A DNA stretch of 64,000 nucleotides. Origin: Clostridiaceae bacterium. GTDB lineage: Bacteria; Bacillota; Clostridia; Lachnospirales; Lachnospiraceae. The notes under the pieces are model-generated. The model saw nothing but the letters and a program-made list of their open reading frames with translations, made no database searches and was not told where the DNA came from. The stretch's first letter is position 1. Each line of letters opens with the position of its first letter. Positions 16,286 to 50,099 of this stretch are shown in pieces. Location of the stretch: NCBI GenBank assembly GCA_910574345.1, contig CAJSZV010000003.1:124001-188000 (forward strand), given 5' to 3'. Position numbers and translations under genes: made by a program.

Positions 16286-17500
16286 ATGAATTTAAAGGAT
16301 ATAAAGCAGAGTCAGATTTACCAGATGGTAAGAATTATATGGACCTATCGGCTGCCTGATAAAGTAACTAAGATTTTGGCATGGATCACAAGAAACAAAG
16401 AATTAAAAAATATAATTCTAATTGAAAGCCATAATGATTTTGATATGAATGGAGGTGCCTTCTATCACCATTTGATTAACAATGGATATAACAAAAAGTA
16501 TAAGATTGTGTGGCTTATAAAGAATAAGAACATTTTAAAAAGAGTCAGATCCAAAAAATTACCGTTTAATGTAGAAGTTGTCCCTATGTTTTATTTGTCG
16601 GTAAAGAGATCCTACTTTAACTGTATCGCGAGATATGCATTTTTTGACTGCTGCTTTTTAAAAAAGATAAAAGATGGGCAAGTATTTGTATATTTAGGCC
16701 ATGCGACACGAGCAATGAAGAATTGCAGAGGGCTGGTGGATGTCCCGAAAGATATTGATTATATAATCAGTGCATCCGAATTTAATAATATTCTAATGTC
16801 GGATATTTACAAAGCGGATATCAGCAAATTTGTTGTGACTGGTTTTCCGGTAACAGATGTTTTCTATGCTGATAATAAGAAAAGAACAAATATAGATAAA
16901 GAGTTAAAAAATTACAGAAAGATAATCGTATGGATGCCCACATTTAGAAAAACACCATTTGCTGATGGAAGATGTGATGGGAAAGCAAATTATGAGACAG
17001 GATTACCACTTATAAAAAGTAAAGCAGAATTTGAAAGGCTAAATGATAAATTGCAAAAATTAGGCATTAGGTTGGTGATTAAGTTTCATCCAGGGCAGGA
17101 TATGGATGTGATCAGAGTTTCTACTGTATCTAATATCCTTCTGCTGTCGCCAAATGATATAAAAAGGCAAAAGATAAACCCATATGAGTTGATAATAAAA
17201 ACAGATGCTTTAATAAGTGACTATTCGTCTATTTCTTTTGATTATCTGCTGCTTAACAAACCAATTGCGTATGTATTGGATGATTATAACGACTATAAAC
17301 TAGGGTTTGCTGTTGATGATCCTTTGAAATATATGCCAGGATCATACATTTATACGATCAAAGATATGGAAACATTTATTGATATGATTTCAGATGGCAG
17401 GGAGGATAAAGGACATGAAAGAATAAAATTGAGAGATATGATTCATAAATATCAGGACGGAAAGTCGTGTGAAAGAATAGCTGAATTTTTAAGATTATAG
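16286..17500 (+). CDS. CDP-glycerol glycerophosphotransferase family protein (TagB/TagF-like)
   Basis: 404 residues. Motifs of the CDP-glycerol:polyol phosphotransferase family are present: GHATRAMKN with the likely active His near residue 134, ASEFNNILMSDIY, VTGFPVTDVF, WMPTFRKT, KFHPGQD and ALISDYSSISFDYLLLNKP near residue 310, which bind the CDP-polyol phosphate. Such enzymes move glycerol-phosphate, ribitol-phosphate or related groups onto a lipid-linked glycan at the inner membrane face. Because this locus carries a phosphonate module and several nucleotidyltransferases, the donor here could be a CDP-linked phosphonate or polyol rather than CDP-glycerol; that is a hypothesis. Confidence 0.86.
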   Translation: MNLKDIKQSQIYQMVRIIWTYRLPDKVTKILAWITRNKELKNIILIESHNDFDMNGGAFYHHLINNGYNKKYKIVWLIKNKNILKRVRSKKLPFNVEVVPMFYLSVKRSYFNCIARYAFFDCCFLKKIKDGQVFVYLGHATRAMKNCRGLVDVPKDIDYIISASEFNNILMSDIYKADISKFVVTGFPVTDVFYADNKKRTNIDKELKNYRKIIVWMPTFRKTPFADGRCDGKANYETGLPLIKSKAEFERLNDKLQKLGIRLVIKFHPGQDMDVIRVSTVSNILLLSPNDIKRQKINPYELIIKTDALISDYSSISFDYLLLNKPIAYVLDDYNDYKLGFAVDDPLKYMPGSYIYTIKDMETFIDMISDGREDKGHERIKLRDMIHKYQDGKSCERIAEFLRL

Positions 17501-17512
17501 GAGTGTGTTGAT

Positions 17513-18916
17513 GTGTCAAGGGAAGATCAACTGGCCAGGAGTACGATAGTATATTTTATTGGCTCATTTGGAAGCAAATTACTGTCGTTTCTGCTGTTAC
17601 CCGTATATTCGAAGTACCTCACTGCGGAAGCTTATGGCAGTTACGATCTTATTAGTACATTGCTGCAGATTATAAGCCCATTTATAACTTTAATGCTGGA
17701 CAATGCGCTTTATGTATACGTTATAGGAACGGATAACACAAAAGAAAGAGATAATATTATATCCTTTTGTACAAAGGTTATGTTGACGAACAGCTGTGTT
17801 GCTGTTGTGGGATTTTTGGTTTTTAACTATTTTTGCAGTGTCAAATATATTGGATGGATCATTGTATGGCTTGTCAGTTCGAATGTAAATGCTACATGGC
17901 TTCAGATAGCCCGAAGTTTAAAAAAACAAAAGCTGTATTCTTTAACAGGGGTGATCATAACTGCCATCACATTGAGTGGAAATATTATAGGGCTGGTTAT
18001 CTTAGGACAAGATTATAGATTTTTAATGATATCAAATTGTTTAGCCTATACGGTATCCATAGTGTTTCTTGAATCCAGACTGCATGTTGTTGGCTTTGTA
18101 AAAAGGGGCAATGCTTCCAGATCATTAAAACTGAAACTGTTGAAGTATTCAGCGCCTCTTTTGCCAAATCAATTGAGCTGGTGGATTTTGAACGTTTCGG
18201 ACAGGGTGATGATTTCATATTTTTTGGGAACAGGAGCTAATGGAATATACGCAATGGCTTGTAAAATTCCAGGGATCCTGATGGTAGTGCATGGAATATT
18301 TGCTGCTGCATGGTCGGATGATATATTGACATCGGGCAATATGAAGGATACAGAGGTATACGCTGAGCGGATCTATAATATGTATATCCGGGTATTGATT
18401 GGAATTACAGTTGTTTTAATGTCAGCAAATAAATTTCTATTTAAATATATTATTTCAGGCAATTTTATTGAGTCATTTAAATACACTTATTTTTTATATA
18501 TAGGTTTTATATTCAGTTCTTTGGGGAGCTTGCTAGGTGCGTTTTATGGATATTTCAAGAAATCTCTGAATGTTTCGCTGAGTACAATCGTTTCAGCACT
18601 TGTAAATTTTATGATTAATTATTTGTTTTTAGCCAGATATGGTATTGAGATCGCCAGTTTGTCGACCTGCGCTGGTTCTTTTACTATCTGGATAATCAGA
18701 CTGGCCGGGCTAAGAAATATTGTAAGAGTAAGAATTTATAGAGCGACAAAATATATGTTTGCCATACTTATTCCTTTATATTTTCTTAAAGATATAGAAG
18801 GGTTTGTTCAGAATCTTGTACTGATTTTTGCTGGTGTGGCGGTTGCAGTTCTGATTAATATGAAAACAATTATAGAAATAGGAAGCAGACTTTTGATTAA
18901 AATAAAGAGAACTTAG
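17513..18916 (+). CDS. Polysaccharide flippase (Wzx-like, MOP superfamily)
   Basis: 467 residues, twelve to fourteen hydrophobic helices, with the family-typical N terminus (SRSTIV-like segment followed by GSFGSKLLSFLLLPVYSKYL) and the middle LLPNQLSWWILNVSDRVMI block. Moves lipid-linked repeat units across the cytoplasmic membrane for the Wzy polymerase of the same locus. The start is GTG 17513, with AGGAG nine bases upstream. It is followed eight bases later by the first gene of the phosphonate module. Confidence 0.92.
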   Translation: MSREDQLARSTIVYFIGSFGSKLLSFLLLPVYSKYLTAEAYGSYDLISTLLQIISPFITLMLDNALYVYVIGTDNTKERDNIISFCTKVMLTNSCVAVVGFLVFNYFCSVKYIGWIIVWLVSSNVNATWLQIARSLKKQKLYSLTGVIITAITLSGNIIGLVILGQDYRFLMISNCLAYTVSIVFLESRLHVVGFVKRGNASRSLKLKLLKYSAPLLPNQLSWWILNVSDRVMISYFLGTGANGIYAMACKIPGILMVVHGIFAAAWSDDILTSGNMKDTEVYAERIYNMYIRVLIGITVVLMSANKFLFKYIISGNFIESFKYTYFLYIGFIFSSLGSLLGAFYGYFKKSLNVSLSTIVSALVNFMINYLFLARYGIEIASLSTCAGSFTIWIIRLAGLRNIVRVRIYRATKYMFAILIPLYFLKDIEGFVQNLVLIFAGVAVAVLINMKTIIEIGSRLLIKIKRT

Positions 18917-18924
18917 GAGAGATT

Positions 18925-20226
18925 ATGAGAAAAACTGTATTTATATCAATGAGCACAGATATCATTCATGGAGGCCATATTGCTATCATAGAGAAAGCAG
19001 CGGCTTTGGGAGAGGTGACAGTAGGAGTGCTGACCGATGAGGCTGTGGCAAGCTTTAAAAGGTATCCCCTTCTCAGTTATGAGGAGAGAGTAAAAATTAT
19101 CTCACAGATCAAAGGCGTATCAAGGGTAGTACGTCAGAATACAATCAGTTATAAAGAGATTCTGGACAATTACAGGCCGGATGTCGTAGTGCATGGGGAC
19201 AACTGGAGGACAGACCATCTGAAACCGATTAGAACCGAATGCCTGGAAATCCTTGAGTCATATGGGGGAGAACTTGTGGAATTTCCTTATTCCTCAAACA
19301 GTGAATATAAAAAGCTGGATGCATATTTTCGGGATCAGGCTTCTCTTCCAGATATACGGCGGGCCAGATTAAAAAAGGAAATTGCCATGAAGGGACTTGT
19401 CATTGCAATTGAAGCTCATAGCGGACTTACAGGACTGATTGCAGAAAATACAGTAGTTTATGAGGAAAACGGAGGGGCCAGACAGTTTGATGCCATGTGG
19501 GTTTCATCTCTGTGCGACTCCACAGCGAAGGGAAAGCCCGATATCGAACTGGTAGATATGACATCCAGGTTCAGGACCATTGACGATATTATGGAGGTTA
19601 CCACAAAGCCGGTTATTTTTGATGCGGATACCGGGGGAATGACAGAACATTTTGTGTATACGGTCAGAACATTGGAGCGGATCGGTGCATCCATGGTCAT
19701 CATTGAAGATAAAACCGGCCTTAAGAAAAATTCCTTGTTTGGCAATGAAGTGAAACAGACCCAGGCAGCGATTGAAGATTTCTGTGAGAAAATCCGTGCC
19801 GGTAAACATGCATTGAAAACAAATGATTTTATGATCTGTGCCAGAATTGAAAGCCTGATTCTGGAACAGGGGATGGAGGACGCCCTTAAGCGTGCATATG
19901 CGTTTACAGATGCAGGGGCAGACGCAATTATGATACATAGCAGAAAAAAGGATCCGGCTGAGATTTTTGAATTTATAGAAAAATTCCGCGCTGAGGATTC
20001 GTCAACGGTTCTTGTAGTTGTTCCCACATCTTTTAATGAAGTGACAGAGGAAGAGTTCAGGGCACGGGGCGTAAATATTGTGATTTATGCAAACCAACTG
20101 ACGCGGACAGGCTTTCCGGCCATGCAGAGTGCGGCAAGAATGATACTTGAAAATCACAGGGCGAAGGAATGTGATGATATCTGTATGCCGATTAAGGATA
20201 TTATCCGTCTGATACCCGAAGAATGA
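18925..20226 (+). CDS. Phosphoenolpyruvate mutase with N-terminal cytidylyltransferase-like domain
   Basis: Forms the C-P bond by converting phosphoenolpyruvate to phosphonopyruvate. 433 residues in two domains. Residues 1-135 are a CTP-transferase-like domain with the HGGH nucleotide-binding motif at 15-18 and VVHGDNW near 91. Residues ~150-433 are the PEP mutase domain of the isocitrate lyase superfamily, with DSTAKGKPD, DADTGG and the signature EDKTGLKKNS starting near residue 261. This EDKxxxxxNS motif separates PEP mutases from lyases. Reads RBS AGGAGAG. Higher in GC than the upstream flippase. A second copy with the same fusion is at 48783-50078. The role of the N-terminal domain is not certain; activation of the phosphonate product is the obvious idea. 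Confidence 0.95.
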   Translation: MRKTVFISMSTDIIHGGHIAIIEKAAALGEVTVGVLTDEAVASFKRYPLLSYEERVKIISQIKGVSRVVRQNTISYKEILDNYRPDVVVHGDNWRTDHLKPIRTECLEILESYGGELVEFPYSSNSEYKKLDAYFRDQASLPDIRRARLKKEIAMKGLVIAIEAHSGLTGLIAENTVVYEENGGARQFDAMWVSSLCDSTAKGKPDIELVDMTSRFRTIDDIMEVTTKPVIFDADTGGMTEHFVYTVRTLERIGASMVIIEDKTGLKKNSLFGNEVKQTQAAIEDFCEKIRAGKHALKTNDFMICARIESLILEQGMEDALKRAYAFTDAGADAIMIHSRKKDPAEIFEFIEKFRAEDSSTVLVVVPTSFNEVTEEEFRARGVNIVIYANQLTRTGFPAMQSAARMILENHRAKECDDICMPIKDIIRLIPEE

Positions 20227-20248
20227 TCAAACCTATGAGGAGAGTTAT

Positions 20249-21010
20249 ATGAAGGCAATTATATTAGCAGCGGGGAAAGGAAGCCGCATCTCTGATGAGA
20301 TAGGCCCGATTCCGAAGTCAACACTGGAAATTGGGGGAAAACCTATCATCCGCCGTACAGTGGAACTGCTTCAGCAGTATCATATAGAAGTTGCCGTATG
20401 TACGGGATACCGCCGCCGGAAAATAGAAGAGGCCCTGGAAGGCTTGAAGGTGTCATATTTTAACAATCCTTTTTATGACGTAACGAATAATATCGCTTCC
20501 TTGTGGTTTGCGCAGGATTTTTTAAAAGGGGACGACTGTCTTGTTTTGAGTGCAGATGTGATTTTTGATCGAGATCTTTTGGAAAAACTCATGCAGATGG
20601 AAGGCGATCTTATTATGGTCACGGATTCCAGCCGTGTAGCCGACGGAGATTATTTTTTTCATATGGCAGAGGATGGAACGATAGCCGAGTACGGTCCGGA
20701 TATTCCAATGGAGAGAAGAGACTATGAGTATGTTGGTATTGATAAAATATCTAAAGGCAGCATCGACAGCTTTAAGGGTACGCTTCTTACTATGATAGAG
20801 GAAGGGAAGACGCAAGGTTATTTTGAGTATGTATTTTTTTACTATATTGGTCATCCGTACATCAGGCTAACCACGTTGGATATATCTGGTTGTGTGTGGA
20901 GAGAAGTGGATTGTATAGATGATTATAATAAAGCAGTGAAGGAACTTTGCAGAAATGCCCAAGGTGATGGGGTACAAACTGCGAATAAGGAGGAAAAATG
21001 CGGTGAGTAA
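20249..21010 (+). CDS. LicC/PntC-like cytidylyltransferase
   Basis: 253 residues, GT-A-like nucleotidyltransferase fold. The N terminus has the LAAGKGSR nucleotide-binding loop and PKSTLEIGGKP. The stretch NNPFYDVTNNIASLWFAQ near residue 73 matches the pattern of CTP:phosphocholine and phosphonate cytidylyltransferases (LicC/PntC). ADVIFDRD provides the acidic metal site near residue 98. Placed between PEP mutase and the rest of the phosphonate module, it most likely makes a CMP-activated phosphonate for glycan decoration. It overlaps the transketolase start by eight bases, indicating coupled translation. Confidence 0.83.
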   Translation: MKAIILAAGKGSRISDEIGPIPKSTLEIGGKPIIRRTVELLQQYHIEVAVCTGYRRRKIEEALEGLKVSYFNNPFYDVTNNIASLWFAQDFLKGDDCLVLSADVIFDRDLLEKLMQMEGDLIMVTDSSRVADGDYFFHMAEDGTIAEYGPDIPMERRDYEYVGIDKISKGSIDSFKGTLLTMIEEGKTQGYFEYVFFYYIGHPYIRLTTLDISGCVWREVDCIDDYNKAVKELCRNAQGDGVQTANKEEKCGE

Positions 21011-22904
21011 TTACGTCCCAATACCGTTATCTCTAGTGGAAAATATAGCCTGTGACATGCGGCATGATATTCTGAAAATGGTATACAACTGTGGGAAAGA
21101 AAACGGTCATCTTGGAGGGTGCATGTCTGCTGTTGAAGTGCTTGCGGTACTTTACACCCAGATCATGAATATCAATGAAGTCGCCCATTCGGATAGAGAC
21201 TGGTCTGAAAGGGATCGATTTATTATGAGTAAAGGACATGCTGGGATTGCCATGTATGCGGCGATGAAGCATGTGGGGCTTGTTTCACAGGAAATGATCA
21301 GTGGACCGATTCGGGGAGAGACGGCTATCCTTTACCGGCATCCCAAAAGAAATATTGGATATGGAATTGAATGCTCAGTAGGCAGTCTTGGCATGGGTTT
21401 GGGATATGGAAACGGTTTGCAAGAGTCTTTTCGCAGGAGAGGAACAAACCAGAGGGTGTTTGTCATGATTGGTGATGGAGAGTGCAATGAAGGCTCTGTT
21501 TGGGAAAGCGCGGCTTATGCCAGCCACAGAAAACTTGATAATATTACAGTCATTGTGGACATGAATAAGCTGCAGCTTGACGGACCAACGCATGATATTC
21601 TTTCCATGGACAATATGGCTGAGAGATGGACTGCCTTTGGATTTAAAACGGTGGAAGTTGATGGGCATGATATAGAGGCGATTTATAAAGCTTTGCAGAC
21701 AGAGCATGTGGGACAGCCATTAGCAGTCATCGCTCATACGATTAAGGGAAAGGGAATATCGTTTGCAGAAAATAAAACGGAATGGCATGATAATTACTTG
21801 AGTGATGAACTGTATGAGAAGGGAATAAAAGAATTAGGCGGCAGGGATCTTTCAGAAGTGAAAAAACTTGCTGCAGAGAGGTTTGAAACAAGAAGGATAA
21901 AGATAAAAGGAAATTCTGAAGGGCAGGTAATATCCATTCCTGACACGGAGGAGCAGATATTATCTTGGCAAAGTTATGGCATCAAGAATGCTATTGGGGA
22001 GGTTTCTTTTCAGCTGGCAGAACAGGATGAACTTTTCACTCTTATTTACTCAGATTGTGCCAATAGAATCGGGATTAAGAGTCTTCATGAAAAGTATCCT
22101 GAAAAATGTTATGAGGCAGGAATCGCCGAACAGAATCAGATAGTGATGGCAGCGGCTATGGCACATGAAGGTTTTCATGTTTTTGCAGTTGCTTATGCGC
22201 CGTTTATTACTGCAAGAGTTCTGGATCAGATCAGAGTAAATCTCGGATATATGAAGGCACCCGTTTGTTTGATTGGATTGAGCGCGGGTATGGCGGGGAG
22301 TGATCTGGGGGCTACGCACACGGCATTTGAGGATATTGCCAATACAAGGAGCATTCCGAATATACTTGTAACTGCTCCGGCAGATACTTATGAAATGGTG
22401 AAGGGGATGGAGTATTTTGTAAATAATCCGAGACCTATGTATTTAAGGGTGACAGTGGGAGAAGATACTTATTTTAAGCCAGTTGCCTATTCGCCGCTGA
22501 AGGCAGATGTGATCAGGAGAGGGAAGGATATTGCACTTGTTGCAGTGGGGATACTTCTTAAAGAAACGATAAAAGCGGCAGAGATTCTTCATGAAAAAGG
22601 AATAGAAGCCACAGTCATAAACGCAAGAACAGTGAAGCCTTTAGATGAAGAAATGATAGAAACCATTTTATTTTTTGAAACCATAGTAACGATTGAAGAG
22701 CACAGCGTTATCGGTGGTCTAGGAAGTGCGGTTGCTGAGAAGCTGGCGGTCAGGGCAAGGAAAGGAAGACTACATATGGTAGGGGTAAATGATGAATATT
22801 TCTATGGGGAACAAGGAAGAGTACTGTTCAAAAAGAATGGCCTTGCCGCAGATGGAATAGTTGAAAGTATCCTTCATGTTATAAGGCAAGTTGAGAGTGA
22901 GTAA
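21003..22904 (+). CDS. Transketolase family protein
   Basis: 633 residues: an N-terminal thiamine-diphosphate domain with GDGECNEGSVWE near residue 155, a pyrimidine-binding domain beginning near residue 315 with the catalytic Glu in AGIAEQNQ, and the C-terminal transketolase domain. The usual enzyme moves two-carbon ketol units between sugar phosphates. Its place inside a glycan locus, between a cytidylyltransferase and a WavE-like gene, suggests it supplies an unusual sugar or polyol precursor rather than running central metabolism. The start is GTG 21003, with AAGGAGG nine bases upstream; the in-frame ATG 20955 would overlap the previous gene much more. Confidence 0.9.
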   Translation: MSNYVPIPLSLVENIACDMRHDILKMVYNCGKENGHLGGCMSAVEVLAVLYTQIMNINEVAHSDRDWSERDRFIMSKGHAGIAMYAAMKHVGLVSQEMISGPIRGETAILYRHPKRNIGYGIECSVGSLGMGLGYGNGLQESFRRRGTNQRVFVMIGDGECNEGSVWESAAYASHRKLDNITVIVDMNKLQLDGPTHDILSMDNMAERWTAFGFKTVEVDGHDIEAIYKALQTEHVGQPLAVIAHTIKGKGISFAENKTEWHDNYLSDELYEKGIKELGGRDLSEVKKLAAERFETRRIKIKGNSEGQVISIPDTEEQILSWQSYGIKNAIGEVSFQLAEQDELFTLIYSDCANRIGIKSLHEKYPEKCYEAGIAEQNQIVMAAAMAHEGFHVFAVAYAPFITARVLDQIRVNLGYMKAPVCLIGLSAGMAGSDLGATHTAFEDIANTRSIPNILVTAPADTYEMVKGMEYFVNNPRPMYLRVTVGEDTYFKPVAYSPLKADVIRRGKDIALVAVGILLKETIKAAEILHEKGIEATVINARTVKPLDEEMIETILFFETIVTIEEHSVIGGLGSAVAEKLAVRARKGRLHMVGVNDEYFYGEQGRVLFKKNGLAADGIVESILHVIRQVESE

Positions 22905-22970
22905 GATCAAAGATACTGTTAAGCAGACAAGAAAATGATATGATTTCACTCGGAGATGAGAGGTGACATA

Positions 22971-24149
22971 ATGGGAAATGGGACGTCTAATAGAGTGATT
23001 GTAAAAGCCGTTAAAAAAAGTTTGATAAGTATAAATAGTGGTTTTGTAAACATTACTTGTAAAATAGCAAAAATGTGTGGATATGAAGGACTGACGGATG
23101 CGTATATGAAGTCCATGGTTAAGTGTTACGAAAAAAACACAGATTATTATGCTGCATACAAAATCATAGCAAAAAAATCCGAAAAAGTTTTTAGTATAGA
23201 AGAATCAAATGATTATGATAGGCAGGTAGGCATTATTATTCAGGGACCGCTAGTTTTGAAAGATCATTTTACTTTAGAGACGATACGAATTTATCGAAAA
23301 TTATTTCCTTCCGCAAAGGTTATTTTATCAACTTGGGAAAATGAAAACAAAGAGGAACTTGAGTTAATTGCAAAAGAGAAGAATTGTACCATCGTCACAA
23401 GTAAAATTCCTGATGATCCTGGGGTACTCAATGTAAATCTTCAGTGCATATCAACAAGAAGTGGTATTTTAAAAGCAGAAGAACTTGAGTTAAAGTATGT
23501 TGCAAAGACCAGAACGGATTGGAGAATGTACCATCAGGGCGCTATTCGTTTTATGATACATCTGTTGGAAATATTTCCATGTAAAGAATATTTATTCAAG
23601 CAGAAACAAAGAATTATAACAATGGATATAGCAACAGATGAAACCTCCATTTTATTTTATCCATTTTGGATTTCTGACATTTTTCAGTTTGGTGAAATAC
23701 AGGATATGAAAAACTACTGGAATCATCCTGTATCTAAGCAGGGGAAAATGACCAAGGGCGGTCTGGATGAATATATACGTACAAATAAATATTCGTGGAG
23801 CAGGAGGGCAAAAGAAGGATTATTAATTGAGGCAAGGCTTGCAATTGATTATTATAGAAGAATGACTGGTAATGAGCCGATTGTTACGGTAGATGAATAT
23901 TGGAAATTTATGAAAGGGTACTTTATAGTGGTTCCCAGAAGTATGATTGGCGGATATTGGTTTAAATATGAGGAACGCCGCATTTTAGAATCTATGGATT
24001 GGGGAACTTGTTTTAAAAATGACTCTCAGGATAGTCTGCTAACATATAACTTTGATTTTGTTTTTTGGCTTAATCTATTATCAAATGACTTAAATTATGA
24101 TGACAGTTATAAAACAATGTGTGATAGAAGAAGTTATGTATACAGGTAA
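22971..24149 (+). CDS. WavE-family lipopolysaccharide synthesis protein
   Basis: 392 residues resembling the WavE family of surface-polysaccharide genes (first named from Vibrio cholerae LPS core loci). The conserved parts are VGIIIQGPL near residue 85, KVILSTWENE near 117, and KTRTDWRMYH near 185, which together suggest a glycosyltransferase-like fold. ATG 22971 follows AGAGGTGACATA; an in-frame ATG at 22956 is less well placed. An open frame that overlaps its 3' end in another phase (24136-24381) may be a frameshifted C-terminal part of this gene or a fragment of another. Confidence 0.8.
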   Translation: MGNGTSNRVIVKAVKKSLISINSGFVNITCKIAKMCGYEGLTDAYMKSMVKCYEKNTDYYAAYKIIAKKSEKVFSIEESNDYDRQVGIIIQGPLVLKDHFTLETIRIYRKLFPSAKVILSTWENENKEELELIAKEKNCTIVTSKIPDDPGVLNVNLQCISTRSGILKAEELELKYVAKTRTDWRMYHQGAIRFMIHLLEIFPCKEYLFKQKQRIITMDIATDETSILFYPFWISDIFQFGEIQDMKNYWNHPVSKQGKMTKGGLDEYIRTNKYSWSRRAKEGLLIEARLAIDYYRRMTGNEPIVTVDEYWKFMKGYFIVVPRSMIGGYWFKYEERRILESMDWGTCFKNDSQDSLLTYNFDFVFWLNLLSNDLNYDDSYKTMCDRRSYVYR

Positions 24150-24381
24150 TAGGAGGAAGTATGAAGCTAATTATTCCGATGATTTGTTTAACAAAAAATA
24201 TATTGATTCGTTTTTGAAAGGGGCAGGTATAGTTCTGCTTGCTGTGGGGCAGGACCATATATATTTACCAGAATTGTCCGATATGCAGAGAAAAATCATA
24301 CAATGCAAACGTACCAGGATACGAGTCAGTTCTGGGTTCAGAAGAAAAATAAAAAGACTAACAGGAGGCAGTGAAAGGTAG
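24136..24381 (+). pseudogene. Small frame after wavE-like gene; possible frameshifted tail
   Basis: About 81 codons with residues such as FLKGAGIVLLAVGQDHIYLP that look like genuine protein sequence, but no convincing ribosome binding site for ATG 24136. A strong AGGAGG at 24151-24156 instead drives an ATG at 24161 in another frame that ends after 18 codons. This could be the displaced C terminus of the WavE-like protein or a decayed gene. I do not recognise it. Confidence 0.35.
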
Positions 24382-24382
24382 C

Positions 24383-25015
24383 ATGAAGATTTTAGCACAT
24401 AGGGGCTGTTGGGGCAAGGAGGTAAGCTGCAATTCGCCTGAAGCCATAAGGGCTGCCATAGAGCAAGGATATGGTTTTGAATCAGATGTCAGGGATTATA
24501 TGGAGAAAATGGTTATTTCTCATAATATTGCAGATGCATCATGTCAGGATGCAGAGGAAGTATTCAGATGGCTACATGAGTTCGGTGATAAGTGTTGTTT
24601 TGCCATTAATATTAAAGCAGACGGGCTGAAGGATATCCTAAAAGAATATATTGGGAAGTATAAGATTTCAAATTATTTTCTTTTTGATATGTCGGTTCCT
24701 CAGATGGTTGAATTCCGAGACGCAGGACTGAGATTCTATACGCGTCAGAGTGAGGTTGAGCCGTTCCCCAATATGTATGACTATGCCGCTGGGATTTGGA
24801 TCGACGGATTCTGGTCAATGCAATGGATTACGGAAGGGCTTTTGGGGCAGCACATTGCAAACGGAAAAGAGGTCTGCCTGGTTTCCCCAGAGCTGCACGG
24901 AAATCCGTACGAAGCATTTTGGAAGGATATCAAAAAGTGGAGTTTGGATACATCAAAAATGTCTCTATGTACAGATTATCCAGACAAGGCAAAGGAGTAC
25001 TTCTATGGGGAATAA
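24383..25015 (+). CDS. Glycerophosphodiester phosphodiesterase-like protein
   Basis: 210 residues. The N terminus ILAHRGCWG and ESDVRDYMEKMVISHN match the HR...E-D...H pattern of the GDPD TIM-barrel family (catalytic His near residue 6 and 45). The barrel is shorter than the usual ~240-250 residues. In this setting it might hydrolyse a phosphodiester intermediate or act as a carbohydrate-modifying enzyme; in several clostridial loci GDPD-like proteins accompany nucleotidyltransferases and HAD enzymes. It overlaps the next gene by 11 bases. ATG 24383 is favoured over GTG 24371. Confidence 0.72.
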   Translation: MKILAHRGCWGKEVSCNSPEAIRAAIEQGYGFESDVRDYMEKMVISHNIADASCQDAEEVFRWLHEFGDKCCFAINIKADGLKDILKEYIGKYKISNYFLFDMSVPQMVEFRDAGLRFYTRQSEVEPFPNMYDYAAGIWIDGFWSMQWITEGLLGQHIANGKEVCLVSPELHGNPYEAFWKDIKKWSLDTSKMSLCTDYPDKAKEYFYGE

Positions 25016-25637
25016 AATAAAAGGGGTCCTTTTCGATATGGATGGGGTTCTTATTGATGCGAAGGACTGGCATTATGAGGCATTAAACAAGGCTCTTGGT
25101 TTATTCGGTATAGAGATTAGCAGGTACGACCATCTCAATACATTTGACGGTTTGCCAACTAAAGTAAAACTGGAAATGCTGAGCAAAAGATATTATCTGC
25201 CACAGGAACTGCATTCGTTTATTAATGAGATGAAACAATCCTATACAGCAGAGCTGATTCATTTAAAATGTCATCCAGTCTTTAATCATGAGTATGCGCT
25301 TTCGAAACTTCACCATAACGGTTATAAAATTGCAGTATGTTCAAATTCTATAAGGAAGACGATAGAACTTATGATGGAAAAGGCGGATCTCTTACAATAT
25401 CTTGATCTGATTGTATCCAATGAAGATGTAACCAAAGCAAAACCGGATCCCGAGATGTATCAAAAGGCTATTAAAAGATTTGGATTCGCACCAAAAGAGT
25501 GCATTGTCGTGGAAGATAATCCAAATGGGATACAGGCTGGATTGGCATCAGGTGCTTTTGTTCTTGAAGTTGCTACTATATATGATGTGAATTATGAAAA
25601 TATTATAAGAAAAGTACAGGAGGTAGAAGGTGATTAA
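25005..25637 (+). CDS. HAD-family phosphatase (beta-phosphoglucomutase-like)
   Basis: 210 residues. HAD motif I is FDMDGVLIDA near residue 10, motif II is the Ser in AVCSNSIR near 107, the motif III Lys lies in AKPDPEMY, and motif IV is VVEDNPNGIQAG near 170. The cap is of the small helical C1 type found in sugar-phosphate phosphatases and phosphoglucomutases. Probably dephosphorylates or isomerises a sugar or polyol phosphate for the glycan. ATG 25005 has AAAGGAG upstream and overlaps the GDPD-like gene, so expression is coupled. Confidence 0.88.
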   Translation: MGNKIKGVLFDMDGVLIDAKDWHYEALNKALGLFGIEISRYDHLNTFDGLPTKVKLEMLSKRYYLPQELHSFINEMKQSYTAELIHLKCHPVFNHEYALSKLHHNGYKIAVCSNSIRKTIELMMEKADLLQYLDLIVSNEDVTKAKPDPEMYQKAIKRFGFAPKECIVVEDNPNGIQAGLASGAFVLEVATIYDVNYENIIRKVQEVEGD

Positions 25638-26346
25638 CATATTAATACCTGCTATGGGGACATCTACTTTTTATAAAGATAGTTATTTTCCAAAACCTCT
25701 GTATGAAATTAATGGGAAAACCATGTTGGAAATGGTTGTGGAGAATTATAAAGATTTAGACCTAAAGCAATACATATTTGTCTTTTCTGAGGAGGACTGT
25801 CTAAAGTTTCATCTGGATGCTTCGGCAAAGATTCTAACACAAACAAGTCAAGTGATAAAGTTGAGAAATCAGACTGCAGGAGCGCTTTGTACAAGCCTTA
25901 TAGCAGTAGATTATATCAATAATGATATGCCTTTAATTATTGCGAATAGTGACCAGATAATTACTGTAAATTATAGAGATGTGATAAGCTGGTTTGATAA
26001 AGCCAATGTTGATGCTGGAATCATTACATTTCCAAGTATCCATCCCAGATGGAGTTATGCGAGAAAAAAAGGTGATGAAATTGTAGAGGTTGCAGAAAAA
26101 AGACCTCTTTCTAAAGATGCGATTGCCGGATTTTATTATTTCAGAAAAGGATGCGATTTTATCATGGCGGCGAAAAAGGCTTTGATAAAAAGGAACCATC
26201 TGGACGGAAGATATTATATTTCATCATCTATTAATGAATTGATACTATCAGGTAAAAAGGTAGGGTATTTTGATATTGAAAAGGAGCAGTATAAATCATT
26301 TTATTCACCTGCAAAAGTTAAAGAATATGAGGAGAGTTTAAAATGA
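25630..26346 (+). CDS. Nucleotidyltransferase, GT-A-like
   Basis: 238 residues, starting at GTG 25630 with AGGAGGT just upstream and overlapping the HAD gene. The N terminus ILIPAMGTS replaces the usual glycine-rich G-x-G-x-R loop, FPKPLYEINGKTMLE carries the conserved Lys-Pro, and IIANSDQII near residue 100 is the acidic metal site in altered form (N-S-D). Resembles sugar nucleotidyltransferases. Paralogous in layout to the gene at 26673 in the same operon. Because the activating loop is unusual, it could be a catalytically altered member. Confidence 0.75.
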   Translation: MINILIPAMGTSTFYKDSYFPKPLYEINGKTMLEMVVENYKDLDLKQYIFVFSEEDCLKFHLDASAKILTQTSQVIKLRNQTAGALCTSLIAVDYINNDMPLIIANSDQIITVNYRDVISWFDKANVDAGIITFPSIHPRWSYARKKGDEIVEVAEKRPLSKDAIAGFYYFRKGCDFIMAAKKALIKRNHLDGRYYISSSINELILSGKKVGYFDIEKEQYKSFYSPAKVKEYEESLK

Positions 26347-26669
26347 AAAGTGCAAAGATAGGAGATATGAAAGGCGGCTGGTTTATTGGAAATTTTGAAC
26401 CATCTCTTTTTAAAACGAATGATTGCGAAGTGGCTGTAAAGGAATATAAGAGGGGTGACGAAGAAGCAAAGCATTATCATAAAATTGCTACTGAATATAC
26501 CCTAGTTGTAAAAGGAAGCGTACGGATGTTTGATGAGGTATATGGTGCAGGGGATATTATTGTGGTAGAGCCGGGAGATGCAACTGCATTTGAGGCACTG
26601 GAGGATACCGTGAATGTAGTGGTGAAAATTCCTGGTGCTAATAACGACAAATATCTTGTGGAGGATTAA
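26343..26669 (+). CDS. Small cupin-domain protein
   Basis: 108 residues, one beta-barrel cupin. HYHKIATEYTLVVKGSVRMF corresponds to cupin motif 1 with metal-binding His and Glu near residues 42-50, and GDIIVVEPGDATAFEAL to motif 2, in which the second His is missing. Cupins in glycan loci are often sugar epimerases or isomerases, but this one is short and incomplete in metal ligands, so it may be a binding or regulatory subunit. It overlaps the stop of the previous nucleotidyltransferase gene by four bases. Confidence 0.78.
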   Translation: MKSAKIGDMKGGWFIGNFEPSLFKTNDCEVAVKEYKRGDEEAKHYHKIATEYTLVVKGSVRMFDEVYGAGDIIVVEPGDATAFEALEDTVNVVVKIPGANNDKYLVED

Positions 26670-26672
26670 GGC

Positions 26673-27404
26673 ATGTTGAATATAGTGATACCAATGGCTG
26701 GAAGAGGAAATAGATTTGCGCAGGCGGGCTATGAAAGGCCAAAACCACTGATTGATGTATTCGGCCATCCAATGATTGAGTATGTAACAAGAAATATTAC
26801 CCCCAAATGTGATCATAAGTTTATTTATATCTGCCAAGAAGAGCATCTTGTTAAGTATGGGTTAGCAGATGAACTAAATAGGATGTCACCGGGGTGTAAA
26901 ATAGTAACAATTGATCATATTACTGAGGGGGCAGCATGTACAGTTCTTCTAGCTGAGAAATATATTGATAATAATGAGGGATTGATGATTGCGAACTCAG
27001 ACCAGTATGTGGATACGGATATTAATATGTACCTTAGTATGATGGGAGATATGGATGGTCTCATAATGACTATGCCAGCTGACGACCCGAAATGGAGTTA
27101 CATTAAATATGATGAGAATAATTTAGTAACAATGGTCAGAGAGAAGGAAGTGATCTCAGACGAGGCTACTGTAGGAATCTATAATTACAAGCATGGCAAA
27201 GATTTTGTGACATTTGCACACCAAATGATCAAAAAAAATATAAGAGTAAATAATGAGTTTTATGTTGCACCAGTATATAACGAAATGATTGATGCAGGAA
27301 AGAAAATTACTTACTGTGATGTTGGGACAAAGATGTATGGTCTCGGTATACCTGAGGATCTGAACTATTTTATGGATCAGGAGGTGAGCAAACAGATATT
27401 CTGA
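26673..27404 (+). CDS. Sugar nucleotidyltransferase-like protein
   Basis: 243 residues. The N terminus IVIPMAGRGNRFAQAGY holds the classic nucleotide-binding loop, followed by RPKPLIDVFGHPMIEYV with the conserved Lys-Pro. IANSDQYVDTD near residue 108 is the metal-binding acidic site. Closely parallels the protein at 25630 in order of motifs, but with an intact loop. Likely activates a sugar or polyol phosphate as an NDP derivative for locus 1. Confidence 0.82.
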   Translation: MLNIVIPMAGRGNRFAQAGYERPKPLIDVFGHPMIEYVTRNITPKCDHKFIYICQEEHLVKYGLADELNRMSPGCKIVTIDHITEGAACTVLLAEKYIDNNEGLMIANSDQYVDTDINMYLSMMGDMDGLIMTMPADDPKWSYIKYDENNLVTMVREKEVISDEATVGIYNYKHGKDFVTFAHQMIKKNIRVNNEFYVAPVYNEMIDAGKKITYCDVGTKMYGLGIPEDLNYFMDQEVSKQIF

Positions 27405-27433
27405 GTTGAGGGAATGATGAAAGGGAGAAAGAG

Positions 27434-28555
27434 ATGAAAGTTGAAAAATTTATAGAGATTGTCGGAGCAGATTTTTATACGGGAGTACCCGATTCCCAGC
27501 TTAAGCCGCTTTGCAACTACTTGATGGATACTTACGGAATCAATCCAAAGCACCATGTAATTGCAGCAAACGAAGGAAATTGTACGGCGCTGGCGGCGGG
27601 TTACCATCTGGCTACCGGGAAGACACCCGTTGTATATATGCAGAACAGTGGTGAGGGCAATATCATAAATCCGGTTGCAAGCCTTCTGAATGAGAAAGTG
27701 TATGGGATCCCCTGTATATTTATTATTGGATGGCGTGGGGAACCGGGTGTTCATGACGAGCCGCAGCATATTTACCAGGGTGAGATTACAATAAAGCTGT
27801 TGGAGGATATGGATATTAAATCGTTTATTGTAGGGAAAGATACGACGGACGACAAAGTGGAAGCCGTAATGGCAGAGTATCGGGAGCTGCTGGCCATGGG
27901 CAGAAATGTAGCGTTTGTTGTACGCAAAGGGGCTGTTTCCTATGATAGTAAGGTGACATATGAAAATGGGAATACTATGACCCGCGAAGAGGTAATCCGG
28001 CACATAGTGGAAGTGAGCGGTGAGGATCCCATAATATCCACAACCGGGAAAGCCAGTCGTGAATTATTTGAAATCAGGACTGCCAATGGCCAGAGCCATA
28101 AATACGATTTCCTCACAGTAGGTTCTATGGGACACAGCAGCAGCATTGCCCTGGGGGCGGCGCTCAGCAAGCCAGATACACGGATATGGTGTGTGGATGG
28201 AGATGGGGCTGTGCTTATGCATATGGGGGCCATGGCAGTGATTGGTGCAAATAAACCAGAGAATTTAATCCACGTAATAATCAATAATGGCGCCCATGAA
28301 ACCGTTGGGGGGATGCCGACGGTAGCTGGACAGATTGATCTGGCTGCGATTGCAAAAGGCTGTGGGTATCCATACGCAGTCAGTGTTGACAATTTTGATG
28401 ATCTGGATCAGGAACTGCAAGCGGCAAAAGGGAGAAGGGAATTAAGTATGATTGAGATAAAGTGTTCGATTGGTTCCAGGGATAATTTGGGAAGACCAAC
28501 AACCACAGCACTGGAAAATAAGCAGAGATTTATGGAGTATTTGCAAATGCTGTAA
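27434..28555 (+). CDS. Phosphonopyruvate decarboxylase
   Basis: Thiamine-diphosphate enzyme converting phosphonopyruvate to phosphonoacetaldehyde, which makes the PEP mutase step irreversible. 373 residues, normal length. FYTGVPDSQL opens the protein, the catalytic Glu is E47 in NEGNCTA, MQNSGEGN lies near residue 70, and VDGDGAVLMHMGAM near residue 253 is the GDG thiamine-diphosphate motif with the pairing Asn-Asn about 25 residues later. RBS GGGAGAAAG. It closes locus 1, about 7 kb downstream of its PEP mutase, and is a close paralogue of 50100-51221. Confidence 0.95.
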   Translation: MKVEKFIEIVGADFYTGVPDSQLKPLCNYLMDTYGINPKHHVIAANEGNCTALAAGYHLATGKTPVVYMQNSGEGNIINPVASLLNEKVYGIPCIFIIGWRGEPGVHDEPQHIYQGEITIKLLEDMDIKSFIVGKDTTDDKVEAVMAEYRELLAMGRNVAFVVRKGAVSYDSKVTYENGNTMTREEVIRHIVEVSGEDPIISTTGKASRELFEIRTANGQSHKYDFLTVGSMGHSSSIALGAALSKPDTRIWCVDGDGAVLMHMGAMAVIGANKPENLIHVIINNGAHETVGGMPTVAGQIDLAAIAKGCGYPYAVSVDNFDDLDQELQAAKGRRELSMIEIKCSIGSRDNLGRPTTTALENKQRFMEYLQML

Positions 28556-38891: not shown

Positions 38892-38940
38892 AGAAAAACT
38901 TCTGAATCCTATGATTATTTACATATTAGGAGGGGATATA

Positions 38941-45109: not shown

Positions 45110-45829
45110 TTGAAGGTATTACTAATGTCTGATGTTCATGGCAATTTATCAGCAATGCAGGCATTCCTGTCTTTAGAGATTAAGGCTGATGCATGTATAC
45201 TGTTAGGTGATTTAATTGATTACGGTATGCATTCCAATGAAATAATAGAAATAGTGAGTGAATTTGTATATCCTGTCATATGTAATATTCGGGGAAACCA
45301 TGAACTAGCCATTATGAAAAATGATTATACACGTTTTTCATCTGAGAGAGGACGTGCATGCGCGCAATATACAGCAAGTATCTTATCGTCCGCCGCAAGG
45401 AAATATATAGATGAAAACATGATTGATAATTGTATATATGAGTTTAAAATTGGAAAAATGCTATGCTTGGCAGTCCACGGAAGTTTGGCTGACGCTGCCT
45501 GGGGCAGTATTAAAGCAGAATATGATTTGTCTGCATATAAAAAGTATGATTATGTTTTTTCGGGACATTCCCACATGCCGCACTTTTTTGAAAAATATTA
45601 CAAGACAGATAATTGTGAGTATCGGAATAGGAAAAAAACAATTTTTATCAATCCAGGCTCTTTAGGACAGCCAAGAAACCATAATCCTATGGCACAATTT
45701 GCTTTGCTGGATACAGAGACAGAACAAATTGTTTTTGAAAAAATATTATATGATGTGGAAAAGGAGCAAAGAGATTATACAGGAGAAGTGGATGAATTTT
45801 ATAAAACCAGATTAAGGAGCGGTGTGTGA
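45110..45829 (+). CDS. Calcineurin-like metallophosphoesterase
   Basis: 239 residues with the full motif set: SDVHGN at residue 7, GDLIDYG near 34, GNHE near 64, VHGS near 120 and GHSHMP near 150. These residues bind two metal ions in YfcE/MJ0936-type phosphodiesterases. It may hydrolyse a phosphate ester or diester arising in the locus 2 pathway. The start is TTG 45110, with AGGGAGAAAC upstream. Confidence 0.88.
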   Translation: MKVLLMSDVHGNLSAMQAFLSLEIKADACILLGDLIDYGMHSNEIIEIVSEFVYPVICNIRGNHELAIMKNDYTRFSSERGRACAQYTASILSSAARKYIDENMIDNCIYEFKIGKMLCLAVHGSLADAAWGSIKAEYDLSAYKKYDYVFSGHSHMPHFFEKYYKTDNCEYRNRKKTIFINPGSLGQPRNHNPMAQFALLDTETEQIVFEKILYDVEKEQRDYTGEVDEFYKTRLRSGV

Positions 45830-46818
45830 TGAGTGACTTGTATGTGATTAGCGGTGTAACGGGAATGACAGGCAATGAGCTAGCCCGTCAGTTAGTAGAA
45901 AAAGGAGACAAGGTAATAGGCTTTGACAATTTTTTTGCTTCGTCATTAAATACAGTAAAGGACATAATAGGTAATAAATCATTTGACTTTTTTGAATATG
46001 ATTTAAATAACAAGGAGCAGATGTCTCTTTTAAAAGAAAAGGTGTTAAAAGAAAAAAATGGAATCCGTCGCTTGGTTTATATTAATTGTGCTGCAGTTGT
46101 TCATACAGAGCATTTTTACCATATAGACAGAACGTTTGCAACAAATGTCATTGGTATGAAAAATATTTTAGAACAGGCAATTGATGTAGGCGCGGATATT
46201 TTTATTAATTGTTCAACATCCGAAGTATACTCTATGATCTCATGGAAAGAAGGTGGAGTAAAGGAATCAGATTTTATTACTATGTCGGATGCAGAACATA
46301 GCCAAAGGACAAGCTATGCAGCGGGAAAGCTTTTGACGGAGTTTTTTATGAAGGATGCTGTGGATAAAGGAAAAATAAAAGGGTGTTCGATTCGCTTTGC
46401 TAATGTATACAGTAGAAATGAACTCTATCCTAAGCATATTATTCCTCATATTCTTAATCAGTTAAAAGAAAAAGGAAGTGTAACATTATTAAAGAACAGC
46501 AAGGTAAATAAAAGAACATTTTTACACAATATAGATAGCTGCAGTGCAGTGATAACATTGATTGATTCGAAGGATGCCTTAGATGGAACTATTTATAATG
46601 TTGCAACTGATGAAGAAATATCTATTGTTGATTTGGTAACATTATGCGGAAAAAAGATGGGTATTATGAATCCCAAAATTGTCTTTGATGGATATCGGGA
46701 ATCTGACCCGGAGCGCCGCATATTAAATACAGACAAAATTCGCCAACGGACAAATTGGATGCCTACAGTTACATTAGATGAGGGAATAGAGGCATGTATA
46801 GAGGAAATGAATAGATGA
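45829..46818 (+). CDS. NAD-dependent epimerase/dehydratase
   Basis: 329 residues. The N terminus VISGVTGMTGNELARQL is the NAD loop (G-x2-G-x2-G with a variant first part), INCSTSEVYSM the Ser region near residue 125, and TSYAAGKLLTE the Tyr-x3-Lys pair near 165. Extended SDR acting on a nucleotide sugar. Overlaps the next nucleotidyltransferase by four bases and follows the phosphoesterase directly. Confidence 0.87.
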   Translation: MSDLYVISGVTGMTGNELARQLVEKGDKVIGFDNFFASSLNTVKDIIGNKSFDFFEYDLNNKEQMSLLKEKVLKEKNGIRRLVYINCAAVVHTEHFYHIDRTFATNVIGMKNILEQAIDVGADIFINCSTSEVYSMISWKEGGVKESDFITMSDAEHSQRTSYAAGKLLTEFFMKDAVDKGKIKGCSIRFANVYSRNELYPKHIIPHILNQLKEKGSVTLLKNSKVNKRTFLHNIDSCSAVITLIDSKDALDGTIYNVATDEEISIVDLVTLCGKKMGIMNPKIVFDGYRESDPERRILNTDKIRQRTNWMPTVTLDEGIEACIEEMNR

Positions 46819-47558
46819 AGATACTGATTGTGACAGCAGCGGGAATGTCTATGCGTTTTAGTAAGTCCATCGGAAGAACTTGTTTGAAATGCTTATATTA
46901 TCAGGATAATATAAGGGAATCGCTGCTTTGGTTTTTGCTTCATCAGGAAGAGGAATTTGACCAATATATTATTGTGGGCGGTTTCATGTTTGACGAGCTT
47001 TGCAAAGCAGTGCAAAGTGATTTTTATGACCTGAATGATAAGATTATTTTAATGAATAACGAAGAATACTGCAGATATGGCTCAGGTTATAGTTTATACA
47101 TAGGGTTAAAGACTGCGATAAAAGCAGGATTTGATGAATTAATCTTTTTAGAAGGAGACTTGTTTTTTGATCAGGATAGTTTTCAGCGTATATATGATTC
47201 GCCAAAGAGTGTGATCACCAGCTCACCAGAAGAAATATTGGCAGATAAAGCAGTAGTGTTTTATTTTAACAAAAATCATAAGATTCATTATATATATGAT
47301 ACTAATCATAGTATGTTAGAAATAAGGGAACCCTTTTTGGGAGTTTTTAATTCAGGACAAGTTTGGAAGTTTAGCAGACCGGATTTGGTAAAATCCGTTT
47401 TTGACTCGATGGATCAAAAGGAATGGGAAGGAACAAATCTAGTGTTTGTGGAAAAATATTTTCAGTCTTTGAATTTTAATGAATATGAAATAATCCGCTT
47501 TTCAAAATGGATTAACTGCAACACTATCAGTGATTTCCAAAGAAAAATGAGTTTATAA
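46815..47558 (+). CDS. Nucleotidyltransferase-like protein
   Basis: 247 residues. ILIVTAAGMSMRFSKS keeps the outline of the nucleotide-binding loop but lacks the Gly-x-Gly-Thr/Ser-Arg core, and FLEGDLFFDQDSF near residue 115 gives the acidic site. RYGSGYSLYIGL near residue 95 recalls the N-N-x-x-S-L block of LicC/PntC cytidylyltransferases. It is upstream of the 391-residue dehydrogenase-like protein and the PEP mutase, so activation of a phosphonate or polyol is possible. Confidence 0.7.
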   Translation: MKILIVTAAGMSMRFSKSIGRTCLKCLYYQDNIRESLLWFLLHQEEEFDQYIIVGGFMFDELCKAVQSDFYDLNDKIILMNNEEYCRYGSGYSLYIGLKTAIKAGFDELIFLEGDLFFDQDSFQRIYDSPKSVITSSPEEILADKAVVFYFNKNHKIHYIYDTNHSMLEIREPFLGVFNSGQVWKFSRPDLVKSVFDSMDQKEWEGTNLVFVEKYFQSLNFNEYEIIRFSKWINCNTISDFQRKMSL

Positions 47559-47583
47559 ACGTAAAGAGAAGGAGAAACTTGCA

Positions 47584-48759
47584 ATGACGACATTAGAAGA
47601 GCGATTGAATATTCTGAGAAGTGAATTAAAGAAAAGAAAGGCCAAAATTATGATTATCGGCCTTGGAAGTGTTGGAAACTATTTGATGGATTATCTGATG
47701 TCAGAATGTGATGAACAAATTGAGATTTGCGCAGTTGGACGCAATAAAGAAAAATTACAATCAGATGTGAATATTGTGAAAGTTGCGTCATTAATCAGGG
47801 GGAAAAACAGAAGCCGAATTAAGATTATAGACGGTGTCGATTTAGATGATGTTTCCAGTATTACGGATGCTTTCGCTTCTTATCAGCCGGATATTGTCAT
47901 AAATGCCAGCCGCGCGTATTCAGGCTTAAAATACGGAAGTATTTCCTGGAAAAATATCCGAGCATACGGTATCTGGGCGCCGCTGGCGATTAAATATGTA
48001 AAAAATATCATGGAGGCCTGGGAGAAATCAGGTTCAAATGCGATTGTGATTAATACATCATATTCTGATGCAGTTATTCCATGGCTTAAGTCGGCAGGCA
48101 AAGCCTATCCGGATTTTGGAAGTGGGAATATTAATCATCTTGTCTATCGATTTAAGCTAGCAGCAGGAGAGCTGGCGGATATCTCTGACTATTGGAATAT
48201 AGATGTTACTTTTGCTACGGCACATTTTCATGATGTCGTCATTAGCAAGGAAGGTCATACAGAAGGCGCTGAATTATTAATTGATTTCCGCTATGGTGAA
48301 AAAAAACTGAATTTAGATATGGCGAAGCTTGTATCACAATGCTGCATTCCGATGCCGGTAGACGGAAAACGAAATATGATGAATGCTTCCAGCAATTTTG
48401 AAATAATCAAATCAATTTTAGAAGTTGTTAGAGACTGCAAAAAAATCAAATTGCATTGTCCGGGAATTTTTGGAGAAATAGGGGGATATCCGGTAATGCT
48501 TGACGGAACAGGAGATAGGATAAAGGCGTCTATCTATGATAAAATGTTTAGCTTGGAAGATATGCGTCAGAAAAATCGGGCGTCTATCTATTTGGATGGT
48601 ATTGAGAATATTAGTGACGGGGTTTTAGTATATACAGATGAATTGCTTAGAAAGGTTAAAACAGCGTTTGGTGTCAATTTAATGAAAAAGGTTTCCTTTG
48701 ATAATATTGAAACAGCAGTAGATCTTATTATCAGAGAAATTATCGAAAAGAACATATAA
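47584..48759 (+). CDS. NAD(P)-binding protein, saccharopine-dehydrogenase-like
   Basis: 391 residues. IMIIGLGSVGNYLMDYL near residue 21 is a Rossmann dinucleotide loop, followed by a conserved PDIVINASRAYSG near residue 100 and a long C-terminal substrate domain. The outline fits saccharopine/homospermidine-dehydrogenase-like oxidoreductases, but no specific family is certain. Position immediately before the PEP mutase raises the possibility that it reduces phosphonoacetaldehyde or a related aldehyde; this is a guess from context. Confidence 0.65.
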   Translation: MTTLEERLNILRSELKKRKAKIMIIGLGSVGNYLMDYLMSECDEQIEICAVGRNKEKLQSDVNIVKVASLIRGKNRSRIKIIDGVDLDDVSSITDAFASYQPDIVINASRAYSGLKYGSISWKNIRAYGIWAPLAIKYVKNIMEAWEKSGSNAIVINTSYSDAVIPWLKSAGKAYPDFGSGNINHLVYRFKLAAGELADISDYWNIDVTFATAHFHDVVISKEGHTEGAELLIDFRYGEKKLNLDMAKLVSQCCIPMPVDGKRNMMNASSNFEIIKSILEVVRDCKKIKLHCPGIFGEIGGYPVMLDGTGDRIKASIYDKMFSLEDMRQKNRASIYLDGIENISDGVLVYTDELLRKVKTAFGVNLMKKVSFDNIETAVDLIIREIIEKNI

Positions 48760-48782
48760 GTTTGGATGACGCGGAGGTAGTT

Positions 48783-50078: not shown

Positions 50079-50099
50079 GCACCTGAAAGGAAATGAATT

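Follow-up and report, generated by a model that had tools for sequence, protein, structure and literature searches.

A transketolase in a probable surface-phosphonate locus of a Lachnospiraceae bacterium: a candidate third step of phosphonate biosynthesis

The DNA analysed here (the window) is a stretch of 64,000 nucleotides from a Clostridiaceae bacterium of the family Lachnospiraceae (assembly GCA_910574345.1, contig CAJSZV010000003.1, positions 124,001 to 188,000). Between positions 18925 and 28555 it carries a locus (locus 1) which encodes a phosphoenolpyruvate (PEP) mutase (PepM), a phosphonopyruvate decarboxylase (Ppd), a PntC/LicC-like cytidylyltransferase (NT25) and a full-length transketolase (TK). 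A preliminary description of this DNA had placed a phosphonate module inside a polysaccharide locus, and this is supported. We incline, by a little more than an even balance, to read locus 1 as directing a phosphonate-decorated surface polysaccharide for which the TK would supply a new third step. The fuller proposal is that a dedicated TK forms a carbon-carbon bond on phosphonoacetaldehyde and so leads to a cytidine monophosphate (CMP)-activated, ketotetrose-like surface phosphonate, that four kinds of cassette are distributed over seven loci in this genome, and that one residue of the cytidylyltransferase tracks the product; to this we would give even chances.

According to their sequence families, PepM is predicted to convert PEP to phosphonopyruvate and Ppd to convert the latter to phosphonoacetaldehyde. 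In place of transamination to 2-aminoethylphosphonate (AEP) or reduction to 2-hydroxyethylphosphonate (HEP), the TK may then use an ordinary donor, e.g. xylulose 5-phosphate, to place a two-carbon ketol on phosphonoacetaldehyde, which would give 2,4-dihydroxy-3-oxobutylphosphonate (4-deoxy-4-phosphonoerythrulose). NT25 would make the CMP derivative of this phosphonate, a WavE-family or a TagF-like protein could attach it to the glycan, and a Wzx-like flippase would export the glycan. The WavE-family protein is a candidate for the transfer because it is part of a cassette shared with a sister locus of the same genome (C1). To our knowledge little has been described of the steps beyond phosphonoacetaldehyde in surface phosphonates, and chain extension by a TK would, if true, be a step new to phosphonate biology.

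The transketolase and its cassette

The TK of locus 1 has the three TK domains, and together with the C1 enzyme it keeps the thiamine diphosphate-binding and catalytic residues H26, H66, H100, D155, E160, N185, H261, E411, F437 and H473 of E. coli TktA; F434 is Tyr in both. While these residues and the domains are alike, all five phosphate- or hydroxyl-binding acceptor positions checked differ from TktA, namely R358K, S385R, H461S, D469L and R520V (T in C1). Two canonical TKs encoded elsewhere in the genome keep R358, S385, H461, D469 and R520. The locus TK, without these acceptor residues, also stays under the cut-offs of TIGR00232 and NF004559, and an ordinary sugar-phosphate transketolase of the pentose phosphate pathway was therefore rejected. 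According to PMC5073344, S385, D469 and R520 are the sites mutated when E. coli TK was evolved to use aldehydes other than phosphorylated ones, and S385 touches the substrate phosphate.

Comparing locus 1 with C1 reveals a sharply bounded cassette. Amino acid identity is 97% for PepM, 98% for NT25, 96% for TK, 94% for the WavE-family protein and 90% for Ppd, as against 62% for the flanking Wzx and 45% for TagF. The similarity at DNA level ends with the WavE gene and starts again at Ppd; in between, the GDPD-like, HAD and two nucleotidyltransferase genes have C1 counterparts of 22-33% identity, the HAD alignment spanning just 49 residues, and the cupin has none. On the dN/dS values of the five shared genes (0.08-0.17) a decaying duplicate was rejected. 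A third PepM-NT25-TK string in the same order (67, 46 and 59% identity) lies at a contig end in G1095, a genome of another genus, and its TK agrees with the window enzyme in Lys, Arg, Ser and Leu at positions 358, 385, 461 and 469. The sharing of the TK together with PepM, NT25 and WavE, the recurrence in another genus and the acceptor-site differences make it more likely, as far as sequence comparison goes, that the TK acts on phosphonoacetaldehyde and not on a sugar partner. The preliminary description had suggested that TK, HAD and the two nucleotidyltransferases build an unusual sugar or polyol; the latter three may belong there, but for the TK this role is less supported.

In a quick tree of 60 PepM rows, one clade (support 96) comprises 20 rows of aminotransferase loci and 7 of type-4 loci, and a second one (support 86) holds 19 iron alcohol dehydrogenase (Fe-ADH), 3 TK, 1 Ldh_2 and 3 unassigned rows; seven rows, mostly on long branches, fall outside both. 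Within the Fe-ADH-rich clade the window/C1 pair and G1095 sit on separate branches, which suggests at least two events in which TK and PepM were brought together or exchanged.

Other TKs are found beside SDR and further genes in L148 (C7:65000-84999 of the same assembly), L145 and L146; some of the TKs in such surroundings, the C7 one included, belong to a wider subfamily that shares the substitutions at 461, 469 and 520. Some of these neighbours are presumably LuxC/LuxE-type aldehyde-forming enzymes, which suggests ketol transfer onto other aldehydes by these TKs.

The cytidylyltransferase residue and the fate modules

NT25 keeps the nucleotidyltransferase residues R15, K25 and D106 of PntC, and its top match in the PDB is 6pd1, a nucleotidyltransferase/aminotransferase from PMC6697681. 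This source describes Glu104 and Glu196 of T. denticola PntC as positioned to touch the amine of AEP. In a MAFFT alignment NT25 keeps Glu196 and has Ser instead of Glu104, a position two residues before the catalytic Asp. Among enzymes of aminotransferase loci this position is Glu in 20 of 21 rows, the exception being the second enzyme in G1027, and in Fe-ADH loci it is His throughout (20/20). Ser occupies it in all three TK loci and in the single Ldh_2 locus (G087). His is found in three loci without a recognised module, three type-4 rows from two loci have Glu, Glu and Cys, and among PepM-free relatives of NT25 we counted 14 Asn and 1 His in 15 rows. The aminotransferase regions L063 and L067 and the Fe-ADH region L125 contributed no row to this count. 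The alternation of Glu, His and Ser is a candidate one-residue rule, which may predict the phosphonate from sequence.

The Ldh_2 locus (L078, 9217-12266) comprises PepM, an NT25-type cytidylyltransferase and an Ldh_2 dehydrogenase. Because Ldh_2 stands beside PepM and no Ppd over cut-off was found in the G087 genome, its product is possibly phosphonolactate. The group P-CH2-CH(OH)-C(=O) would be common to phosphonolactate and the proposed TK product, and this shared part may explain the Ser in both enzymes.

In total, seven genes each for PepM and Ppd exceed the family cut-offs in the 5.6 Mb assembly, where their contigs measure 113 to 469 kb, and the seven PepM-Ppd loci cluster into four types: aminotransferase, Fe-ADH, type 4 (a metallophosphatase/SDR/DUF6564/Rossmann cassette) and transketolase (Table 1). 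Counting this genome, PepM passed the cut-off in 31 of 299 family, 7 of 26 genus and 16 of 398 phylum genomes sampled, and the next highest copy number in these samples was three (G640). For comparison we used 51 PepM regions of other genomes: all 30 of the family sample plus one just under cut-off, all 10 loci of the genus sample, and 10 further ones of the phylum sample. The latter has 15 other genomes over cut-off, and four of them (G964, G699, G989, G853) were left out. The PepM genes of the type-4 loci L066 and L068, overlooked by open reading frame (ORF) picking, were recovered with tblastn, and the Ldh_2 query was taken from the single locus that it finds. Exactly one fate module is present in 46 of these regions (20 aminotransferase, 19 Fe-ADH, 6 type-4, 1 Ldh_2), two modules in none, and no module in five, of which two (G163, G129) have Ppd; as several of these contigs are short, truncation may account for module-free regions. 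In the genome studied here every Ppd-bearing locus except the two TK loci has one of the other modules.

Locus 1 lacks the AEP aminotransferase of AEP-type Pnt clusters, and the search for Fe-ADH, which beside PepM and Ppd we take to be a HEP-forming module, found none in locus 1 and one in C11. The preliminary description had noted the missing aminotransferase, and the whole window indeed has none: TIGR03301 is passed only by the two genes of loci C3a and C16. The genome searches it had called for thus located two AEP aminotransferases, each in a PepM locus other than locus 1, and, as a candidate phosphonoacetaldehyde reductase, the Fe-ADH of C11. Locus 1 therefore probably makes a product other than AEP, and CMP activation of its phosphonate is likely. 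While these two parts of the earlier proposal hold, HEP as the product is less supported because of the missing Fe-ADH and an NT25 without His.

Alternative readings and known systems

Several observations weigh against the proposed TK step. TKs that have no PepM close by (L092, L093, G540) share the substitutions at 461, 469 and 520, which therefore mark a wider subfamily, and R358K is found in L138 and L089; S385R is the one substitution that sets the PepM-linked enzymes apart from the other TKs aligned. Of the three TK-PepM cases, two are recent copies within a single genome, so the three Ser rows amount to two independent cases. The Glu, His and Ser groups also coincide with sequence subfamilies, so that part of the residue pattern may reflect descent and not substrate. 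In G1095 no gene follows the TK on its contig, and this 86% complete assembly yielded no Ppd over cut-off. Searches with the TK also gave few matches: those at 1e-100 occur in 4 of 392 genomes of the order (its own, G439, G540, G552), with no PepM match in the stretches around the latter three; a TK profile found only its own genome among 395 relatives at 1e-130; in the genus of G1095 it occurs in one of five genomes, G1095 itself; and a scan of an 84,980-genome collection turned up four relatives, around which the stretches examined have no PepM match. Of 31 NT25 matches, 3 were already in the set, 8 were not fetched, and 19 of the 20 regions fetched have no PepM in the stretches examined (in four of the 20 the NT25 gene was not recovered, and these count for PepM but not for residues). 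Finally, the aminotransferases and the Fe-ADH of other loci could act in trans.

This last point leads to a reading which we consider rather unlikely, namely that the TK makes a ketose or polyol block of the polysaccharide while the aminotransferase or Fe-ADH of another locus supplies AEP or HEP as the phosphonate. Such genes are present in other PepM loci of the genome, related TKs occur in DNA without PepM, and sugar activation could be the task of the HAD and the two nucleotidyltransferases. However, the TK has been kept with PepM, NT25 and WavE in both loci, whereas the genes lying between WavE and Ppd differ; 46 of the 51 other PepM loci have a fate module of their own; and NT25 has neither the Glu nor the His typical of aminotransferase and Fe-ADH loci. 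Synthesis of HEP by an unrecognised or distant reductase, the main guess of the preliminary description, would fit the absence of an aminotransferase and the position of the locus 1 PepM in a clade with 19 Fe-ADH PepMs, but we hold it to be improbable, as no Fe-ADH match was obtained in locus 1 and NT25 has Ser where Fe-ADH loci invariably have His. Very improbable, finally, is a DXS-like reaction, in which phosphonopyruvate or a different alpha-keto acid would be the donor and the phosphonate part would serve as nucleophile instead of acceptor. The profile TIGR00204 (dxs) does match the C-terminal half of the TK, under cut-off, and G1095 has a TK but no Ppd was found there. On the other hand all histidines of true TKs (26, 66, 100, 261, 473) are kept, a protein of the same genome (C56) which we read as DXS differs among these only at 100 (Phe), and Ppd is conserved in C1.

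Two further candidates were rejected. The HAD protein as phosphonoacetaldehyde hydrolase (phosphonatase, PhnX) reaches 43.3 bits with TIGR01422 against a cut-off of 220. Oxidation to phosphonoacetate is another known fate, according to the portion of PMC12723261 available, and no aldehyde dehydrogenase was detected among the ten locus genes scanned.

The phosphonyl-tailoring (Pnt) clusters of Rice et al. 2019 (PMC6697681) resemble locus 1 in combining PepM and Ppd with a PntC-like cytidylyltransferase in loci for surface glycans. The characterised ones make AEP with an aminotransferase and activate it with CMP, whereas locus 1 has no aminotransferase, Ser for Glu104, and in addition a transketolase, a word absent from the main text of PMC6697681. 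In favour of the proposed TK step we count the sulfo-transketolase SqwGH, which by the available parts of PMC11659671 and PMC9594981 converts 4-deoxy-4-sulfoerythrulose to sulfoacetaldehyde, a sulfonate mirror, in reverse, of that step. SqwGH links, and the proposed step would link, a C2 aldehyde bearing an acid head group with a 4-deoxy-4-substituted erythrulose. SqwGH, however, is described in these two papers as catabolic and two-subunit and acts on a sulfonate, and the proposed step would run the opposite way; the head-group residues of SqwGH are also changed, with RAFDR instead of RSFHR, while the substitutions in the locus TK are different ones. If the proposal is true, the TK would be the phosphorus counterpart of this sulfoglycolytic enzyme, run in reverse. 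In the open-access literature searched, subscription papers not being covered, phosphonoacetaldehyde and transketolase were met together only in a lactobacillus transcriptome study, and nothing was found that combines phosphonate, Lachnospiraceae and pepM.

A non-AEP phosphonate on a polysaccharide, as proposed for locus 1, would have a parallel in the phosphonoglycans (Yu et al. 2014) of Glycomyces and Stackebrandtia. These glycans are reported to carry HEP, and the counterpart to be expected for them in the present genome is the Fe-ADH module of C11 and not locus 1.

Genes of locus 1 and other phosphonate loci

An ORF check confirmed the positions of the locus 1 genes and their common strand as first described, and the assignments of PepM (PF01467 N-terminus, EDKTGLKKNS), NT25, TK, WavE, HAD, the two nucleotidyltransferases and Ppd were borne out by domain or family matches (Table 1). 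The cupin ORF exists, but its profile score is under cut-off, and for the GDPD-like call the Pfam scan gave no match even at E<=1. Upstream, Wzx and the TagF-like protein are supported, while the Pfam scan gave no support to the 'Wzy' named beside them. Since the TK ORF overlaps NT25, its real start is probably downstream of 20955. The PF01467 domain is present on 23.6% of PepM proteins in the data cited from PMC6697681, and the fusion by itself is therefore not unusual.

Table 1. Genes of locus 1 and its upstream neighbours, with other phosphonate loci of the genome and associated features
Feature	Position	Strand	Support or remark
TagF-like transferase (CDP-glycerol glycerophosphotransferase family), alternative transferase	16286..17500	+	PF04464, 135.7 bits
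Wzx-like flippase	17513..18916	+	PF01943
PEP mutase (PepM), N-terminal CTP_transf_like domain, Fom1-type fusion	18925..20226	+	TIGR02320, 391.3 bits (cut-off 319.55); PF13714; PF01467; EDKTGLKKNS matches motif EDKXXXXXNS
PntC/LicC-like cytidylyltransferase NT25, Ser at T. denticola PntC Glu104 position	20249..21010	+	PF12804; residue comparison
Transketolase (TK), full-length	20955..22904	+	PF00456, PF02779, PF02780
WavE-family protein, candidate phosphonate or glycosyl transferase	22956..24149	+	PF07507; conserved in sister locus C1
GDPD-like ORF, weak motif-only assignment	24371..25015	+	27% identity to C1 counterpart
HAD phosphatase, beta-phosphoglucomutase-like	25005..25637	+	PF13419
Sugar nucleotidyltransferase-like	25630..26346	+	PF00483, 27.1 bits
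Cupin-like small protein	26343..26669	+	PF07883, 19.4 bits, under cut-off 27.2
Sugar nucleotidyltransferase-like	26673..27404	+	PF00483, 36.7 bits
Phosphonopyruvate decarboxylase (Ppd)	27434..28555	+	TIGR03297, 469.8 bits (cut-off 312.5)
Window locus 2 (type 4)	45110..51221	+	metallophosphatase, SDR, DUF6564, Rossmann protein, PepM, Ppd
Type-4 loci			window locus 2, C7
Transketolase-type loci			window locus 1, C1
AEP aminotransferase genes of the aminotransferase-type loci (C3a, C16)	C3:45468-46538, C16:53290-54357		pass TIGR03301
Fe-ADH-type locus (C11), expected HEP			PepM is a 670-residue triple fusion
Inverted repeats heading C16	L012 6133-6486		near tyrosine recombinase-like gene
Inverted repeats heading C11	L015 6053-6429		near tyrosine recombinase-like gene
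Inverted repeats heading C1	L016 4820-5525		near tyrosine recombinase-like gene

NT25-family cytidylyltransferases without PepM in the DNA examined are encoded in the regions L165-L184 (except L166). Several of them lie near a gene which we take to resemble a HisC/CobD-type aminotransferase. These enzymes perhaps serve the CMP activation of phospho-compounds other than phosphonates.

The type-4 cassette is found, besides window locus 2, on C7 and in L064, L066, L068, L118, L120 and L124. It encodes a calcineurin-like phosphoesterase, an SDR epimerase, a DUF6564 protein (PF20202), a Sacchrp_dh-like Rossmann protein, PepM and mostly Ppd (not found in L064), with neither aminotransferase nor Fe-ADH, and seven of eight type-4 PepM rows group with the aminotransferase clade. 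Another PepM-Ppd locus, L083 (G163), has a second, separate cytidylyltransferase domain, no recognised fate module, and two adjacent genes presumably related to radical SAM proteins.

The loci C16, C11 and C1 are headed by inverted repeats of 20-27 bp, with ends TTTCGCAGATT/AATCTGCGAAA about 300-340 nt apart, which are likely invertible, phase-variable promoters. That one genome has seven phosphonate loci, and that three of these lie behind such apparent switches, suggests that phosphonate coats are diversified in much the same way as capsules. A search of the window for a repeat like those, including the DNA before locus 1, found none; window locus 2 is preceded by a related recombinase gene (PF00589) at 38911-39798.

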